Positions 18,813-26,164 of a stretch of 64,000 bases of DNA are shown piece by piece. A program made the translations under genes and the position numbers. Each line of letters begins with the position of its first letter. The first letter of the stretch is position 1. The stretch is from an uncultured Flavobacteriales bacterium (GTDB lineage Bacteria > Bacteroidota > Bacteroidia > Flavobacteriales_E > Vicingaceae): assembly GCA_905479915.1 (NCBI GenBank), contig CAJQOH010000025.1, positions 62,001 through 126,000 of the forward strand, written 5' to 3'. The notes under the pieces were generated by a model. That model was given only the letters and a program-made list of their open reading frames with translations. It searched no databases and was not told the DNA's origin.

Positions 18813-18847
18813 GGTAATCCCTGTTGTAATTGAACTGCCACTTTAAA

Positions 18848-21043
18848 ATGAAACAATTTATTTGTTACATACTGATCTTACTCTCTACTGGAGTATATTC
18901 ACAATCCAATTATTATATAATTGACACTACAGGACTGGATATTGCTAATCTTGATGACAATGATAAGTTCTTATTGGACTCTATCTTACCTCTGGCTAAC
19001 GAAGCAGCTCATGACTCAATTCTAATTAAACACATTGCTTTTCTTGCAGAAAGTTGTTGGGACGAAAACCTCTGGCCAAGATACAATCAAAAGCTAATTG
19101 AAATAGCAGACAGAAACTTAATCAAAGAAGAAAGCAAACTCTTTCTTTCCTACAAAGCTAGCGCAATAAGCAATATTGGGTTCTTGTTTGATAATCAAGG
19201 CAAAACAGTTCTTGCCATAGAAAATTACAAAGCTGCTTTGACTCTTTTTAATGAAATTGGTGACAAAACTGGTGCTTCATCTCCAATCAACAACCTTGGT
19301 AAAGCTTATTACAACCTTGGAGATATAGAAAAATCACTTTCATATTACTTACAAGCTCTAAAGCTTCGTGAAGAATTAGGTGAGGAAGAAAGAACAATCG
19401 TTGTAAACAATAACATTGCTACTGTATATCAGGAACAGGGAGAAGATTCTATCTCTGAATACTATTACCGGAAAGCGCTTAAAACGAGCTTAAAATATAA
19501 CAACAAGCACGTCCAAGCAATTACTCATCATCAAATCGGGAAATTGTTATATAGAAAACAAGATTTTGATTCAGCCTTGGTATATTATAACATCTCCTAT
19601 AACCTTAGAAAAGAAATAGGATTTAAACAAGGAATGGCAGAGTCTCTTCACTCCATTGGAAGTCTATTTGCAGAAAGCGACAAGGAAGAGAAAGCATTTG
19701 CTGCTTATAATTTATCCTTGCAAGTACTTGAAGGAACCAATTATTTAGAGGGGTTTATCAGCTCAAAAACAGGCCTAGCCTCTTTATACTTAAAAAAAGG
19801 CGAGAATCAAAAAGCATTAATTCTTGCAGAATCAGCTTTTGAAAATGCTGAAAAAATAGGTTTCCCAGATGTTCTTAAAAAAACTTCTGCGCTTTTATCT
19901 GAGATTTATTCCAACATGGAAATGTTCGAAAAAGCCTTAAAAATGCACAAACTAAGTGTTGAGATGAAAGACAGTTTAGTGAACATTAACAATCAAAAAT
20001 CGGTTTATAAGCAACAAGTTGATTTTAACTTCCAACAAAAAGAACAAGAGTTAATGCTTCAAGAAGAAAAAAGAAAAATGATAGCAGATCAAGAAGAAAA
20101 AAGAAAAAACCTAATCATCCTTTTTATCTCAATTGGCTTATTGCTTCTTATAACTTTTACCCTTTTTCTTTACAATCGCTTTCGCTTGATTAAAAAACAA
20201 AAAAGCTTAATAGAAAAACAAAAAGGCTTAGTAGATGAACAACGATTAGAACTAGTAAATATAAATGGTGAGTTAAGCACTAAAAATGACATGATAACGG
20301 ATAGTATTTATTACGCCAAAAAAATTCAAAAAGCAGTATTACCAGATCTTGAGCCATTCAAAAAGTATTTTCAAGACATCTTTGTTTTCTATCAACCAAA
20401 AGATATCGTATCTGGAGATTTTTACTGGGCTTACAAAACGGAAAAAGAAATATTATTTACCGTTGCCGACTGCACCGGTCATGGTGTTCCTGGAGCATTT
20501 ATGAGTTTAATAGGAAGTAATATTCTTGATAAAATTGTAGGTGAAATGAACGTTACCAGGCCTGATTTAATATTAGAGCAATTAAGTAAAGAGCTGTACA
20601 ATAGATTACAATCCGAAAATGATGATAATGTTAAAGATGGTATGGATTTGGTCATGTGTTCCATTAATTTAGAAACAAAACAACTCCAATTTGCAGGAGC
20701 ATACAACCCTATGTACATTATTAGAGAAAAGGAATTGATTCAATTTAAAACAGATCGTTATCAATTAGGAAACCCAGATCACCTTAAAAGCAAAAGCATT
20801 TCACTACAATCTTTCGACTTAAAAACAAACGACACCATCTACCTGTTTTCTGATGGTTATCCTGATCAAAAAGGTGGAGAACAAGGAAAAAAATACTACT
20901 ACCCTCCTTTTAGAGCTCTTCTTACAAAAAATTCAGAACTGAACCTAACTGAACAAAAAGATGCTCTAGTTAAAGAACTAAAGATTTGGAAAGGGAACAG
21001 AGAACAACTGGATGATATACTTGTTGCAGGGCTGAAGATATGA
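18848..21043 (+). CDS. TPR sensor with C-terminal SpoIIE/PP2C-type serine phosphatase (SiaA-like role)
   Basis: 731 residues from the ATG at 18848; a TTG at 18830 would put six residues ahead of the signal peptide MKQFICYILILLSTGVYSQ. Extracytoplasmic TPR helices (about 80-395) lead into a coiled segment, a transmembrane helix (NLIILFISIGLLLLITFTLFLY, about 417-440), a linker coil, and a cytoplasmic PP2C/SpoIIE phosphatase (about 490-730). The phosphatase metal-site motifs are SGDFYW, VADCTGHGVPGAFMS and DGMDLVMCSI. It should dephosphorylate a small partner protein in response to an envelope signal. The gene overlaps the next, a close paralogue, by ATGA. Confidence 0.9.
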   Translation: MKQFICYILILLSTGVYSQSNYYIIDTTGLDIANLDDNDKFLLDSILPLANEAAHDSILIKHIAFLAESCWDENLWPRYNQKLIEIADRNLIKEESKLFLSYKASAISNIGFLFDNQGKTVLAIENYKAALTLFNEIGDKTGASSPINNLGKAYYNLGDIEKSLSYYLQALKLREELGEEERTIVVNNNIATVYQEQGEDSISEYYYRKALKTSLKYNNKHVQAITHHQIGKLLYRKQDFDSALVYYNISYNLRKEIGFKQGMAESLHSIGSLFAESDKEEKAFAAYNLSLQVLEGTNYLEGFISSKTGLASLYLKKGENQKALILAESAFENAEKIGFPDVLKKTSALLSEIYSNMEMFEKALKMHKLSVEMKDSLVNINNQKSVYKQQVDFNFQQKEQELMLQEEKRKMIADQEEKRKNLIILFISIGLLLLITFTLFLYNRFRLIKKQKSLIEKQKGLVDEQRLELVNINGELSTKNDMITDSIYYAKKIQKAVLPDLEPFKKYFQDIFVFYQPKDIVSGDFYWAYKTEKEILFTVADCTGHGVPGAFMSLIGSNILDKIVGEMNVTRPDLILEQLSKELYNRLQSENDDNVKDGMDLVMCSINLETKQLQFAGAYNPMYIIREKELIQFKTDRYQLGNPDHLKSKSISLQSFDLKTNDTIYLFSDGYPDQKGGEQGKKYYYPPFRALLTKNSELNLTEQKDALVKELKIWKGNREQLDDILVAGLKI

Positions 21044-23199
21044 TTAACGTTATTTATATTAATTTGAAAAAAAGAAGCATTTATATTTTTCTGTTTTTAA
21101 TCTCTTTAAATGGAGTTGCTCAAACTTTTAATAAAAAACAACAGCATCAGCTTGATAGTTTAAATACTATAATCAACACCTCTACAAGCCCTGACACTTC
21201 TTTAGCAGATGCCTATGTTAGTTTGTCAGAAATACTATACGTAACCAACATAGACACCATAGAGCCTTTATGTGAAAGCGCTAAAGCCATCATAGATGAG
21301 GGACTTTCAAAAAGTCCTTCTAAGTTGATTGAAGGAAAGCTTTTAAAAGCTCTCGGTTCTTCTTTAAACAACATTGGTTATTCATATACAGTTCATGGAG
21401 ATATACCCGAAGCACTAAAATATTATCGTAAAGGATTAAAAATAAGAGAGGAGATTAAAGACAAAAAAGGCATTGCCAATTCTCTAAATAATATTGGAAT
21501 TATTTACAAAAGAATGGGAGATCTTCCCGAAGCATTAAAGTATTATCACAAATCTTTAAAAATCAAAAAAGAAATAGATGACAAATCAGGAGTAGGAACA
21601 TCTCTCAACAATATCGGAGGAATTTACGATAGTATGGGAGACGCCCCTGAAGCACTAAAATACTACCATAAATCTTTAAAAGTAAGGGAAGAAATTGACG
21701 ACAAAAAAGGGATAGCGAACTCCCTTAGTAATATTGGTGCTGCCTATAACGACCAAGGAAATATTCCGAAAGCATTAAAATATCACGAAGAAGCTCTGAA
21801 AATAAGAATGGGGACAGGAGATAAAAACGGTGTAGGAATTTCTTTATACAATATTGGAAGTATCTATACGAAAAAGCAAGAATACGATAAAGCCCTGGGG
21901 TATTACTATCAGTCTTTAGAAATTCAAGAAGCGGCAGATGATAAAAGACACTTATCTAGTTCTTTAAGCAATGTCGGGCGAATTATGTTTAAAAAAGGAA
22001 ATTTACAGGAAGCCCAAAGTTATGGTGAACGTAGTTTAAAATTAGCACAAGAGGTAGGTTATCCGGAGAACATTAGTAGCTCATCAAACTTGTTGAGTCA
22101 AATTTATGAAGAACAAAACAAGGATGCCCTGGCTTTAAAAATGTACAAGCTATATTCTACTATGAACGACAGTATGAGTAATGAGTCTAATCAAAAATCT
22201 ATAGTACAACAACAAGCAAAATATGTTTATGAAAAACAAAAAGCCATTGATGATGCAGCACACGATAAGCAGTTAGCACTAGATCAGGAAGAAAAAGAAA
22301 AGCAACAAATTATCACCGTAGCAATAGGTTCAGGGCTGGCACTAACTATTGTTTTTCTCTTATTTATATTTAACCGCTTACAAGTGGCTAAAACTCAAAA
22401 AGCGACTATTGAAAATCAAAATAAAGAGTTGTCATCTAAAAATGATATGATTACTGACAGTATTAATTATGCTAAAAAAATTCAAAAAGCGATTTTACCC
22501 GATCAGGGACCATTCAAAAAGGTTTTTCAAGATATTTTTATTTTTTACAAACCCAAAGACATCGTTTCTGGAGATTTTTACTGGGGCTATAAAACAGAAA
22601 AAGAAATTTTATTTACTGTTGCCGATTGTACTGGCCATGGTGTGCCTGGAGCATTTATGAGTTTAATAGGAAGTAACATTTTAGACAAAATTGTTGGTGA
22701 ATTAAATATCATAAGGCCCGATCAAATTCTTGAGCAATTAAGTAAAGAACTATATAAAAGACTTCGCTCTGAAGGGGAGTCTAATATAAAAGATGGGATG
22801 GATCTCGTTATGTGTTCCATTAATTTAGAGACTAAAAAACTTCAGTTTTCAGGAGCATACAACCCAATGTATATTGTTAGGAATCAAGAGCTTATTCAAT
22901 TCAAAACCGATAGGTATCAACTAGGAAACCCAGATCATTTAGCCAACAAAAACTTTACACTGCAAACTTTCGATTTACAAAAGGATGACATTATCTACTT
23001 GTTTTCTGATGGGTTTCCCGACCAAAAAGGGGGAGAAAAAGGAAAAAAATATTTTTATCCTCCTTTTAGAGATTTTCTTACAAAAAATTCAGAACTTTCT
23101 TTGGCAAAACAACATGACCTTCTCGAGAAGGAATTAATTAATTGGAAAGGAGATAAAGAACAGCTGGACGATATTTTAATAATGGGTATAAAAATATAA
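21040..23199 (+). CDS. Second TPR sensor with SpoIIE/PP2C phosphatase, tandem paralogue
   Basis: 719 residues with a signal peptide (cleavage near GVAQ, residue 28), five regular 40-residue TPR units (120-319), further TPR helices to about 390, a transmembrane helix (IITVAIGSGLALTIVFLLFIF) and a cytoplasmic SpoIIE phosphatase. The phosphatase half is nearly the same as in the preceding gene (KKIQKA, SGDFYWGYKTEKE, VADCTGHGVPGAF), including 32 identical bases (20489-20520 and 22645-22676). The TPR halves differ strongly. The pair therefore looks like a duplication in which the sensor part diverged. It is followed three bases later by the SiaB-like kinase gene. Confidence 0.9.
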   Translation: MINVIYINLKKRSIYIFLFLISLNGVAQTFNKKQQHQLDSLNTIINTSTSPDTSLADAYVSLSEILYVTNIDTIEPLCESAKAIIDEGLSKSPSKLIEGKLLKALGSSLNNIGYSYTVHGDIPEALKYYRKGLKIREEIKDKKGIANSLNNIGIIYKRMGDLPEALKYYHKSLKIKKEIDDKSGVGTSLNNIGGIYDSMGDAPEALKYYHKSLKVREEIDDKKGIANSLSNIGAAYNDQGNIPKALKYHEEALKIRMGTGDKNGVGISLYNIGSIYTKKQEYDKALGYYYQSLEIQEAADDKRHLSSSLSNVGRIMFKKGNLQEAQSYGERSLKLAQEVGYPENISSSSNLLSQIYEEQNKDALALKMYKLYSTMNDSMSNESNQKSIVQQQAKYVYEKQKAIDDAAHDKQLALDQEEKEKQQIITVAIGSGLALTIVFLLFIFNRLQVAKTQKATIENQNKELSSKNDMITDSINYAKKIQKAILPDQGPFKKVFQDIFIFYKPKDIVSGDFYWGYKTEKEILFTVADCTGHGVPGAFMSLIGSNILDKIVGELNIIRPDQILEQLSKELYKRLRSEGESNIKDGMDLVMCSINLETKKLQFSGAYNPMYIVRNQELIQFKTDRYQLGNPDHLANKNFTLQTFDLQKDDIIYLFSDGFPDQKGGEKGKKYFYPPFRDFLTKNSELSLAKQHDLLEKELINWKGDKEQLDDILIMGIKI
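21397..21996 (+). repeat. Five in-frame 120-base TPR repeats
   Basis: Residues 120-319 of the second phosphatase repeat with an exact 40-residue period: G-D-x-P-E-A-L-K-Y-Y-H-K-S-L-K-I at each start and N-N-I-G-x-I-Y near each end. The first three units are almost the same in protein and close in DNA. A unit of 40 rather than the usual 34 residues is typical of TPR_12/NPHP3-like arrays. Confidence 0.85.
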
Positions 23200-23202
23200 A
23201 TA

Positions 23203-23739
23203 ATGACAGGCAATATTTTCGACTTATACAAAACCATGAACGCAGATAAAATTATTTGTGCCTACCATGGCAACTTCAATTATGATGTTGTAAACGGGTT
23301 ATTAAAAACTGCAAAAGTTCAGCTAAACAATCCTGAAAATAACCGTACGTCAGCAAAAAAAACATACAATATTTTAGTAGAATGTTTAGAAAACATTCAC
23401 AAGCATTCCGAAAACGGAGGAGAAAAAATCAAAGAAGCTATTTTTGTTTTAACTCAACCTTCAGATGGTTTTTCAATAACTGTTGGGAATTTAATTTCTT
23501 CATCAGAAAAAGAATCACTAAAAAACAATATTGATAATTTAAATAAAATGACAAGAGATGAGCTTAAGGCTCATTATAGGGATATTATAAAAAATGGAAA
23601 AGTATCTGATAGAGGTGGTGCGGGATTGGGAATGACAGATATTGCCTTAAAATCAAGATCAAAATTAAACTATACATTTAATGAATATTATGAAGATGAA
23701 CTGTTTTTTAGTTTATGTGTTCATATCAAAAATAAATAA
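23203..23739 (+). CDS. SiaB family protein kinase (DUF6272), GHKL ATPase
   Basis: 178 residues, cytoplasmic. It has the GHKL/anti-sigma-like kinase fold: an N-box with NILVECLENIHKHSE (about residues 55-69) and a G-box with SDRGGAGLGMTDIALKS (about 136-152). In Pseudomonas aeruginosa SiaB is the kinase that phosphorylates SiaC and opposes the phosphatase SiaA. Here the gene follows two SiaA-like phosphatases by three bases and precedes a SiaC-like gene by two bases, so the same cycle is inferred. No diguanylate cyclase (SiaD) gene is adjacent. Confidence 0.88.
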   Translation: MTGNIFDLYKTMNADKIICAYHGNFNYDVVNGLLKTAKVQLNNPENNRTSAKKTYNILVECLENIHKHSENGGEKIKEAIFVLTQPSDGFSITVGNLISSSEKESLKNNIDNLNKMTRDELKAHYRDIIKNGKVSDRGGAGLGMTDIALKSRSKLNYTFNEYYEDELFFSLCVHIKNK

Positions 23740-23741
23740 TC

Positions 23742-24140
23742 ATGGAGAATTTTAAAATAGAAGCAACAGAAAACACACCTAAAATAGAGTTAAATCACAA
23801 TGATCATACACTTCTTTTTGAAGGAGATTCAAGACCAGAAAATGTACAAGATTTCTTTGGGCCTGTAATAAAGTGGATAGAGGATTACAACAAACACCTT
23901 TACTTTTTAAAAGACCTTAACAACGCTTCAATTACCATTCAGTGTAATTTTAAGTTTGAGTACTTTAACTCTTCTTCTGCGAAATACATTATGGATATCA
24001 TTAATCTTTTATCCAATTTAGATTCTTCAATTGTGCTATCAATAAACTGGCATTACGAAGAAATGGATGAAGACATGCAAGAAGCTGGAGAGGAGTTTGA
24101 AGATATGATGGGGATTAAATTCAACTTTGTTGTTGATTAA
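23742..24140 (+). CDS. SiaC family regulatory phosphoprotein (DUF1987)
   Basis: 132 residues. It has the STAS-like small-protein layout of DUF1987: KIEATENTPKIELNH at the N-terminus, GDSRPENVQDFFGPVIKWIEDY in the middle and the conserved FEYFNSSSAKYIMDI segment. SiaC in P. aeruginosa is phosphorylated on a Thr in the same NxS/T-rich segment; here the Ser cluster at 77-79 is the likely acceptor. When unphosphorylated, SiaC activates its partner diguanylate cyclase. It is the last gene of the four-gene operon and ends 13 bases from the convergent ispG. The downstream target is unknown. Confidence 0.88.
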   Translation: MENFKIEATENTPKIELNHNDHTLLFEGDSRPENVQDFFGPVIKWIEDYNKHLYFLKDLNNASITIQCNFKFEYFNSSSAKYIMDIINLLSNLDSSIVLSINWHYEEMDEDMQEAGEEFEDMMGIKFNFVVD

Positions 24141-24153
24141 CCCTTTCTTGTTT

Positions 24154-26079
24154 TTAGGCGTCAACCCAATCTCCATGCTCCTTAATCAAACCGATTAAGG
24201 ATTCAACAGCTTCGGTTTCGGGAATATTACGTTGTACAACTTCTTTTTCCTTATACAGTGTAATTTTACCCACCCCTGTTCCTACATAACCATAATCAGC
24301 ATCGGCCATTTCTCCAGGCCCATTTACTATGCAACCCATTATCCCTATCTTAAGACCTTTAAGGTGAGCCGTTACTGCTCTAATTTTAGCAGTAGTTTCT
24401 TGCAAATCAAAGAGTGTTCTTCCGCAACTTGGGCAAGAAATATATTCTGTTTTAGAAATACGTGTTCTGGTTGCTTGTAAAATTCCAAAGGCAGTATGGT
24501 TAATCATTTGGTCACCACCGCAATTCTCAGCAGCGATAAATACACCATCTCCTAAACCGTCTATTAATAGCGCCCCCATGTCTGTTGCTGCCTGAATTTG
24601 CAATTGGTTTTCGGTTAAGTTACCATAAGCTCTACCTATTACAACAGGAGTTTGGCAATCATTATTCATTAATTCAACAAATAATCTTCGTTGCTCTGCC
24701 ATTCCATGGCTGTTATACGTATCTATCATTAATACGACAGTATCGTCTGACTTTAATTTTGCAATGAGGTCATTATTTAGCTCAGGAAGAGTTACATAAA
24801 CTACGTTTAGTTTATCTGACAGTTCAACTCCTGACATATACTTTTTTATATCTAAAAAAGGGTAGCTTTTCTCTTTATGATCTAACCACGTTTTGTGATT
24901 ATAAATAATTCCTAAAGTTCCTGGCACTTCGAAATCAATTACTTTATCTCCCACAAATACATAGTCGCAAGCAGCATCAGCAATATTCCATTTATCTAAA
25001 GGTACAGAGTAATTATACCCTAAAGCAAAAAATGAAGCCGGTGTGATCTTTTCTTTCAAGCAAAAATCTGCCATAACAATAGGCACGTTTTTACCCCCAA
25101 CATTTAGTACTTCTTTTGTTGGTCTTCTATTGTATTCAAAAGGTGTAATTAATGATTTCTCTATTTCAGAAATTTCGTCATGTTTAGCTCTATCCGTATA
25201 TCTTTTAACCAACTCCTGAGCAACAGGAATCTCAAACTCTGGTTCTTCAGTTAAAGAAACTCTTACGGTATCTCCAAGACCGTCTTCTAATAATGTTCCT
25301 ATACCAACTGCAGATTTTATTCTTCCATCTTCTCCTTCTCCAGCTTCAGTAACACCAAGGTGCAAAGGGTAATCCATTCCTTCCGCTTGCATTTTATTAA
25401 CCAACAACCTGTAAGCCTGAACAACAACTTGAGTATTGCTCGATTTCATGGAAAGAACAATTTGATGGTAATCTTGTTCTCTACAAATTCGCAAAAACTC
25501 CAAAGCAGACTCTACCATACCTATTGCAGAATCTCCATATCTACTCATAATTCTATCCGACAAAGAACCATGGTTGGTTCCTATTCTCATAGCCGTTCCA
25601 TGCTCTTTACAAATTGTAATTAATGGAATTAAACGCTCCTTTATTCGCTCAAGTTCTGCTTGATAAGACTCGTCTGTATATTCTATCTCTTCAAACTTTT
25701 TCTTATCGGCATAATTTCCTGGGTTAATTCTTACCTTATCGACAATGGTAGCAGCAATTTCTGCAGCATTTGGAGTAAAGTGAATGTCTGCAACTAAAGG
25801 GGTATTATATCCTTTTTCTCTAAGTGCAGCTTTAATATTGGCCAAGTTTTCTGCTTCTTTCTTACTTGGAGCAGTAATCCTTACAATTTCGCAACCAGCC
25901 TCTATCATTCGTATAGATTGCTCAACCGTTGCTTGAGTATCCATAGTGTCGGTTGTTGTCATTGATTGTACACGAATAGGATTTCCCCCTCCGATTCCAA
26001 TGTTCCCAACCTTTACTTCTCTTGTTTGTAAACGATTATATCTCGTTAAACTGTCGCAATATGTATTTAATAAACTCAT
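24154..26079 (-). CDS. ispG: 4-hydroxy-3-methylbut-2-enyl diphosphate synthase, long form
   Basis: 641 residues from the ATG at 26079; a TTG at 26115 would extend it by 12 unconserved residues. IspG converts MEcPP to HMBPP in the MEP isoprenoid pathway. The N-terminal TIM barrel (about 10-290) begins REVKVGNIGIGGGNPIRVQSMT. A long insertion domain (about 300-520) is characteristic of the plant, Chlamydia and Bacteroidota form. The C-terminal [4Fe-4S] domain has the ligands in SCPSCGRTLFD and GCIVNGPGEM. It appears monocistronic, with the RND operon terminator just upstream. Confidence 0.96.
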   Translation of the reverse strand: MSLLNTYCDSLTRYNRLQTREVKVGNIGIGGGNPIRVQSMTTTDTMDTQATVEQSIRMIEAGCEIVRITAPSKKEAENLANIKAALREKGYNTPLVADIHFTPNAAEIAATIVDKVRINPGNYADKKKFEEIEYTDESYQAELERIKERLIPLITICKEHGTAMRIGTNHGSLSDRIMSRYGDSAIGMVESALEFLRICREQDYHQIVLSMKSSNTQVVVQAYRLLVNKMQAEGMDYPLHLGVTEAGEGEDGRIKSAVGIGTLLEDGLGDTVRVSLTEEPEFEIPVAQELVKRYTDRAKHDEISEIEKSLITPFEYNRRPTKEVLNVGGKNVPIVMADFCLKEKITPASFFALGYNYSVPLDKWNIADAACDYVFVGDKVIDFEVPGTLGIIYNHKTWLDHKEKSYPFLDIKKYMSGVELSDKLNVVYVTLPELNNDLIAKLKSDDTVVLMIDTYNSHGMAEQRRLFVELMNNDCQTPVVIGRAYGNLTENQLQIQAATDMGALLIDGLGDGVFIAAENCGGDQMINHTAFGILQATRTRISKTEYISCPSCGRTLFDLQETTAKIRAVTAHLKGLKIGIMGCIVNGPGEMADADYGYVGTGVGKITLYKEKEVVQRNIPETEAVESLIGLIKEHGDWVDA

Positions 26080-26164
26080 TAACACAAAGTTATTATTTGA
26101 ATCCCAATAACTCAATTTTTAATCAATTATTCTCTCTAACTCTTTCATTTATAATAGATCATAC

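Follow-up and report, generated by a model that had tools for sequence, protein, structure and literature searches.

The four-gene operon at positions 18848–24140 of the window, the whole stretch of 64,000 nucleotides that was analysed, would form one input module of a Sia-type partner-switching network that works without c-di-GMP, and the comparative sequence evidence leans towards a TerB-like/ABC-2 exporter as the partner of its SiaC protein. Judged from domain searches, a c-di-GMP output of this switch is effectively excluded.

Gene calls placed all four genes of the operon, which comes from a marine Flavobacteriales genome, on the + strand. The first gene (18848–21043) encodes a phosphatase of 731 aa, A1, with a signal peptide, predicted periplasmic TPRs, one TM segment, a coiled linker and a cytoplasmic SpoIIE/PP2C domain. 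It starts with the ATG at 18848, and a TTG lies in frame at 18830. Its TM segment spans about residues 419–445 (20102–20182, hydropathy peak 2.56) and its SpoIIE/PP2C domain, located by a Pfam match, residues 533–727 (20444–21028). The second gene (21040–23199) encodes a phosphatase of 719 aa, A2, with a signal peptide, TPRs, one TM segment marked by a hydropathy peak (about residues 422–450, 22303–22389) and a SpoIIE/PP2C domain found by both Pfam and structure matches (residues 521–718, 22600–23193). These are followed by the genes for a 178-aa GHKL kinase of the SiaB family (DUF6272; 23203–23739) and a 132-aa phosphoprotein of the SiaC family (23742–24140). The A1 and A2 genes overlap by 4 bases (−4), and gaps of 3 and 2 bases separate A2 from siaB and siaB from siaC, as the sequence-only reading had stated. 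A convergent gene on the − strand (24154–26115), which from our reading of its sequence we take to be ispG-like, bounds the operon downstream, and the relative G013 has this neighbour too (L161). Scanning the operon for promoters and terminators yielded no useful signal beyond that of shuffled sequences.

The earlier naming of the products as a TPR-TM-SpoIIE phosphatase, its paralogue, a SiaB-like kinase and a SiaC-like DUF1987 protein was confirmed by Pfam, NCBIfam and structure matches. A1 and A2 matched TPR and SpoIIE models (PF07228, 71 and 75 bits, cut-off 25), the kinase matched NF038262 (132.7 bits, cut-off 85) and PF19788 (112 bits), and the phosphoprotein matched PF09345 (108.7 bits, cut-off 24.5). 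The nearest solved structures were the Sia proteins of Pseudomonas aeruginosa: SiaC 6kko_C (E 1.3e-14), the SiaA PP2C domain 6k4e (E 9e-32) and SiaB 6kko_A (E 8e-11). The equivalog models NF038263, NF038264 and NF038265 were not passed by the focal proteins, which scored far below all three cut-offs (SiaA 176–179 against 700, SiaB 67.7 against 225 and SiaC 75.2 against 150). These matches place the operon within the SiaB and SiaC families and, more generally, among the partner switches.

In P. aeruginosa, the phosphorylation state of SiaC T68 is determined by SiaA and SiaB (PMC7647112, PMC8457831), and SiaC without the phosphate binds the stalk of SiaD with residues at and near this site, namely Y65, N67 and T68 (PMC8457831). 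The equivalent phosphosite in the focal SiaC is Ser77 (23970–23972), where YFN-S-SS aligns with YLN-T-SS. Among 95 SiaC proteins the SiaD-binding face was kept, with the Tyr present in 89/95, the Asn in 93/95 and Thr or Ser in 91/95. The alignment of SiaB domains revealed the catalytic Glu in 98/98 and the N-box Asn in 96/98, and the focal SiaB has both (Glu60, equivalent to SiaB E61, and Asn64; 23380–23394). The focal system and SiaABCD (PMC7647112, PMC8457831) are thus alike in A-B-C order, protein families, catalytic residues, phosphosite position and the Y/N/T(S) motif, whereas the focal operon has two TPR-sensor phosphatases, Ser instead of Thr at the phosphosite, no SiaD and no GGDEF. 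Variants of the kinase were seen at other loci. Proteins of ~380 aa with two tandem SiaB domains occur at L239, L273, L274, L275 and L280; elsewhere two siaB genes lie side by side, and in some cases the ATP-lid glycines are missing from the second copy (L276 8742, L209 8621). Such adjacent genes with a degraded second copy suggest a kinase/pseudokinase pair.

The claim that the two sensors differ while the phosphatase stays the same held up well. Identity between A1 and A2 is 79% for the PP2C domain, 48% for the TM segment and linker and 28% for the sensor (405 aligned residues), and the catalytic D457, D474, G477, D600, G601 and D653 of SiaA are all kept in both proteins, which read DDGDGDD at the SiaA positions. 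When A1 was compared with the phosphatase adjoining siaB in G013, the sensors were 74% and the PP2C domains 81% identical; for A2 the corresponding values were 29% and 80%. By these identities A1 is the orthologue of the G013 protein, and the phosphatase part has been held while the sensor changes. In both A1 and A2 the signal peptide is followed by a single TM segment near residue 420 and then by a stretch rich in K/R, so the TPRs should be periplasmic by predicted topology and not extracellular, as had been proposed.

A search for related loci with the focal SiaB returned three loci only, from Flavobacteriales metagenome assemblies. Gene order in these relatives, a comparison that the sequence-only reading had suggested, showed that the equivalent operon is present; the duplicated phosphatase is no general feature of it, since G001 and G002 have a single phosphatase (L160, L164). 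In G013 the contig stops shortly after one phosphatase gene, and a second one may exist there. A2 could also be a recent or partly redundant copy of A1 without a separate signal, as might be argued from the sufficiency of one phosphatase in G001 and G002 and from the closeness of the two PP2C domains. We consider this improbable, because divergence in A2 is much greater in the sensor than in the phosphatase part, to a degree not seen between A1 and its G013 orthologue, and because neither protein has lost a catalytic residue.

The absence of an adjacent cyclase, noted earlier from the sequence, proved to be an understatement. A domain search of the whole source genome (3.57 Mb, 97.5% complete) found no GGDEF domain, whereas the same search found GGDEF in 8/14 control genomes. 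Since the genome lacks GGDEF, the switch must act on something other than a diguanylate cyclase, which had been allowed before as a possibility. The situation is similar throughout the class: among 247 genomes GGDEF was detected in 4, SiaC in 137–138 and SiaB in 139, and SiaC and GGDEF occurred together in 2. A Pseudomonas-like arrangement, with SiaC acting on a diguanylate cyclase whose gene lies elsewhere, is hardly conceivable. The homology of the focal proteins to SiaABC of SiaABCD would speak for such an arrangement, but with no GGDEF match in the genome nor in 243/247 genomes of the class it is refuted, barring a gene in the missing 2.5% of the assembly. The proposed genome-wide check for a cyclase or another SiaC partner therefore returned no cyclase; what it did provide was an ABC exporter as a candidate partner, where the target of SiaC had been left blank.

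This candidate emerged when 60 siaBC neighbourhoods from many families were read for recurring genes. The gene that recurred beside siaBC encodes a protein of about 1000–1050 aa (~1020), with the N-terminus MSERILKALMQLFA in many cases, carrying ABC_tran and ABC2_membrane domains and, in some proteins, a TerB domain above the cut-off. One half of the exporter N-terminus is, by profile, TerB-like. A search of NCBIfam revealed no dedicated model for the protein, the best matches, to ABCG-type permeases, scoring well below the cut-off. The N-terminus was also considered as a possible FHA domain, and this was rejected, as the profile search gave one non-significant match (E 0.12).

Among the 247 genomes, SiaC and the exporter were both present in 127 and both lacking in 106, with SiaC alone in 11 and the exporter alone in 3; two weak ABC matches were left out of this table, and a p-value calculated from related genomes is not a probability. 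The two proteins also varied together within families f3, f15 and f19 and mostly so in f5 and f22. In f3 both were found in G015, G060 and G095 and neither in G124, G152 and G176; in f15 both were found in G027, G158 and G204 and neither in G102, G131 and G246. SiaB and SiaC themselves are almost inseparable (both in 136 of the 247 genomes, alone in 2 and 3). In at least 46 genomes from 22 families, siaC or siaB has the exporter gene no more than 5 kb away, against about 2.7 expected by chance; 20 control regions of 20 kb contained no copy. Of these pairs, at least 33 have their genes on opposite strands and at least 15 have them on one strand, and the families showing the two arrangements overlap only partly.

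The order SpoIIE-siaB-siaC-ABC on one strand was observed in f15, f16 and f67, with gaps of 13–93 bases (L277, L278, L279, L275, L239, L228); in L277 (2557–10113), for example, the gaps are 91, 39 and 83 bases. The same-strand order is also present in f26 and f35, there with two siaB genes (L241, L276). These operons have the layout of SiaABCD with the exporter replacing SiaD. They share the three switch genes, their order and the single strand with the focal operon, but an ABC-2 exporter gene follows siaC in them, whereas the focal operon ends at siaC. In two genomes of one genus the exporter N-terminal domain is also found fused to SiaC, in the product of a further gene that sits between those for SiaC and the exporter (374 aa, L240 13025–14149, domain scores 64 and 98 bits; 377 aa, L272). 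Taken together, the fusion, the gene order and the co-occurrence make direct contact between SiaC and the exporter the most likely reading, and linkage and fusion weigh more than co-occurrence because the genomes are related. From these comparisons we regard a link between the SiaC switch and the exporter across the class as probable.

The numbers of SpoIIE genes follow SiaC as well. The median is 15 copies per genome with SiaC and the maximum without SiaC is 3; at least 4 copies are present in 120/138 SiaC-positive genomes, with 29 in the source genome and up to about 89 candidates elsewhere in the class. In the class-wide count, figures above 12 are first-look candidates and not scored matches. 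This distribution suggests that most SpoIIE phosphatases act on SiaC.

The source genome contains a single exporter copy (C28:10566–13628, 59% identical to the query over 1023 of its residues), and no SiaC gene is linked to it. In four other members of the family, the exporter gene is convergent with the core siaBC pair. The exporter operon of the source genome (L267:7190–15918, on C28) comprises genes for an SSF symporter, a 315-aa putative lipoprotein, a 141-aa protein, the ABC protein and a patatin-domain protein; the first four recur in L268–L271, and searches of Pfam and NCBIfam with the accessory proteins of about 300 and 140 aa gave no match. In the best trees the focal SiaC and SiaB fall together with those of the SpoIIE-siaB-siaC-ABC type (SH 0.53 for SiaC and 0.81 for SiaB), while the exact clades were recovered weakly, in 5/40 FastTree bootstraps for SiaB and 1/40 for SiaC. 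Because the exporter is unlinked in this genome and the bootstraps are weak, the tie between the focal operon and the exporter is one that we infer, with roughly even odds that the operon acts on the exporter of its own genome. We likewise infer the phosphorylation chemistry, the direction of control and an action of the focal SiaC, and not just of the core siaBC pair on C14, on the transporter.

The focal operon is embedded in a larger Sia network. The genome search found 5 SiaC, 2 SiaB and 29 SpoIIE proteins, all 29 of the latter with their catalytic residues kept (loci L008–L036), so the idea of two signals feeding one SiaC switch was too simple and cross-talk is expected. Most of the 29 SpoIIE genes lie far from any siaC. 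The other siaC genes include a siaB-siaC pair of the core type on C14 and a siaC-SpoIIE pair on C38; siaC genes without siaB are found at C14:140612 and C23:70512. In the C23 protein (L039:9498–9893, C23:70498–70893) and in orthologues from three other species (L173:6843, L174:6230, L175:6175) the phosphosite is Ile in all four species found, and this SiaC paralogue could not be phosphorylated there. Its gene always directly follows those for a LytS-type histidine kinase and a LytTR response regulator. Two SiaB kinases must consequently serve four phosphorylatable SiaC proteins. A gene that we take, by our own reading, to be ATP-grasp-like (MRYDITILTQSDYV / MHTYDVTLLTDSRYV) adjoins or is near siaC in two different families (L038:8578–9978 and L184).

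Five SiaC proteins beside one transporter in the source genome suggest other targets for some of them. The focal SiaC might accordingly have a private target, such as an envelope function of the T9SS cargo module kind or a two-component system, with the core siaBC pair serving the ABC exporter. The divergence of the focal SiaC from the core type would be consistent with this, as would the fixed position of the Ile-site SiaC beside the LytS/LytTR pair and an operon of Reg_prop-SpoIIE, SiaB and SiaC that lies beside PorP/SprF, type B sorting-domain or giant LamG proteins (L162–L169). Nevertheless, neither the focal operon nor its orthologues (L160, L161, L164) include a conserved extra gene, and by hand count PorP was near siaC in about 7/75 among the matches listed, compared with up to about 7.5 expected. 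A private target is therefore possible but rather unlikely, and a T9SS/PorP output was rejected, as siaC was no nearer to PorP than chance across 14 genomes despite L162–L169. These loci belong to other species of the genus; their phosphatases are Reg_prop/Y_Y_Y-SpoIIE proteins of about 1050 aa, and their neighbours include LamG/ice-binding-like giants.

An anti-sigma logic, in which SiaB would hold a sigma factor that unphosphorylated SiaC sets free, would also agree with the GHKL fold of SiaB and the STAS-like fold of SiaC (PMC7647112) and with PP2C, kinase and antagonist as the standard partner-switch set. We judge it very improbable, since in the siaB loci inspected by eye no sigma gene recurs while the ABC gene does, and since the output in P. 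aeruginosa is bound by SiaC and not by SiaB (PMC8457831). Other switches with a PP2C phosphatase, a kinase, a STAS-like antagonist and a non-sigma output, as here, are HptB-HptR-HsbA and BgrSTUWV, as far as they are cited in PMC8457831; there they have STAS-domain antagonists and diguanylate cyclase outputs, unlike the focal system. For the exporter, Rv1747/PknF of Mycobacterium tuberculosis (PMC3908365, PMC5549992) offers an analogy only: it is an ABC exporter with cytoplasmic regulatory domains controlled by Ser/Thr phosphorylation, but it has two FHA domains and the Ser/Thr kinase PknF, whereas the exporter described here has a TerB-like N-terminus and a GHKL/PP2C/SiaC switch.

According to the reading that we favour, with the exporter as the output, A1 and A2 would sense two different periplasmic signals via their divergent TPR domains and pass them to an almost shared PP2C domain. 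SiaB would phosphorylate SiaC on Ser77, and A1 and/or A2 would remove the phosphate. As in Pseudomonas, unphosphorylated SiaC would then use the surface surrounding its phosphosite, here to act on a partner other than a diguanylate cyclase, across the class most likely the TerB-like/ABC-2 exporter, contacted at its N-terminal regulatory domain. In the source genome this partner would be the single exporter on C28. More tentatively, dozens of different periplasmic sensor phosphatases in bacteria of this class may all feed into a small set of SiaC proteins, which would gate a single conserved exporter directly, with the Ile-site SiaC as a fixed competitor.

In the open papers that we found, a diguanylate cyclase is the sole characterised output of a SiaC/DUF1987 protein, and no link between SiaC and an ABC exporter was encountered. 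The one paper found to name DUF1987 goes no further than the suggestion that 'adjacent proteins' are modulated by SiaC proteins (PMC8457831). Over half of the class genomes in the sample carry SiaC, almost always without GGDEF. A conserved transporter tied to SiaC by co-occurrence, gene order and fusion would make the SiaC output in this class directly testable, and the exporter link may offer a reason for the many SpoIIE sensor phosphatases in genomes that have SiaC.
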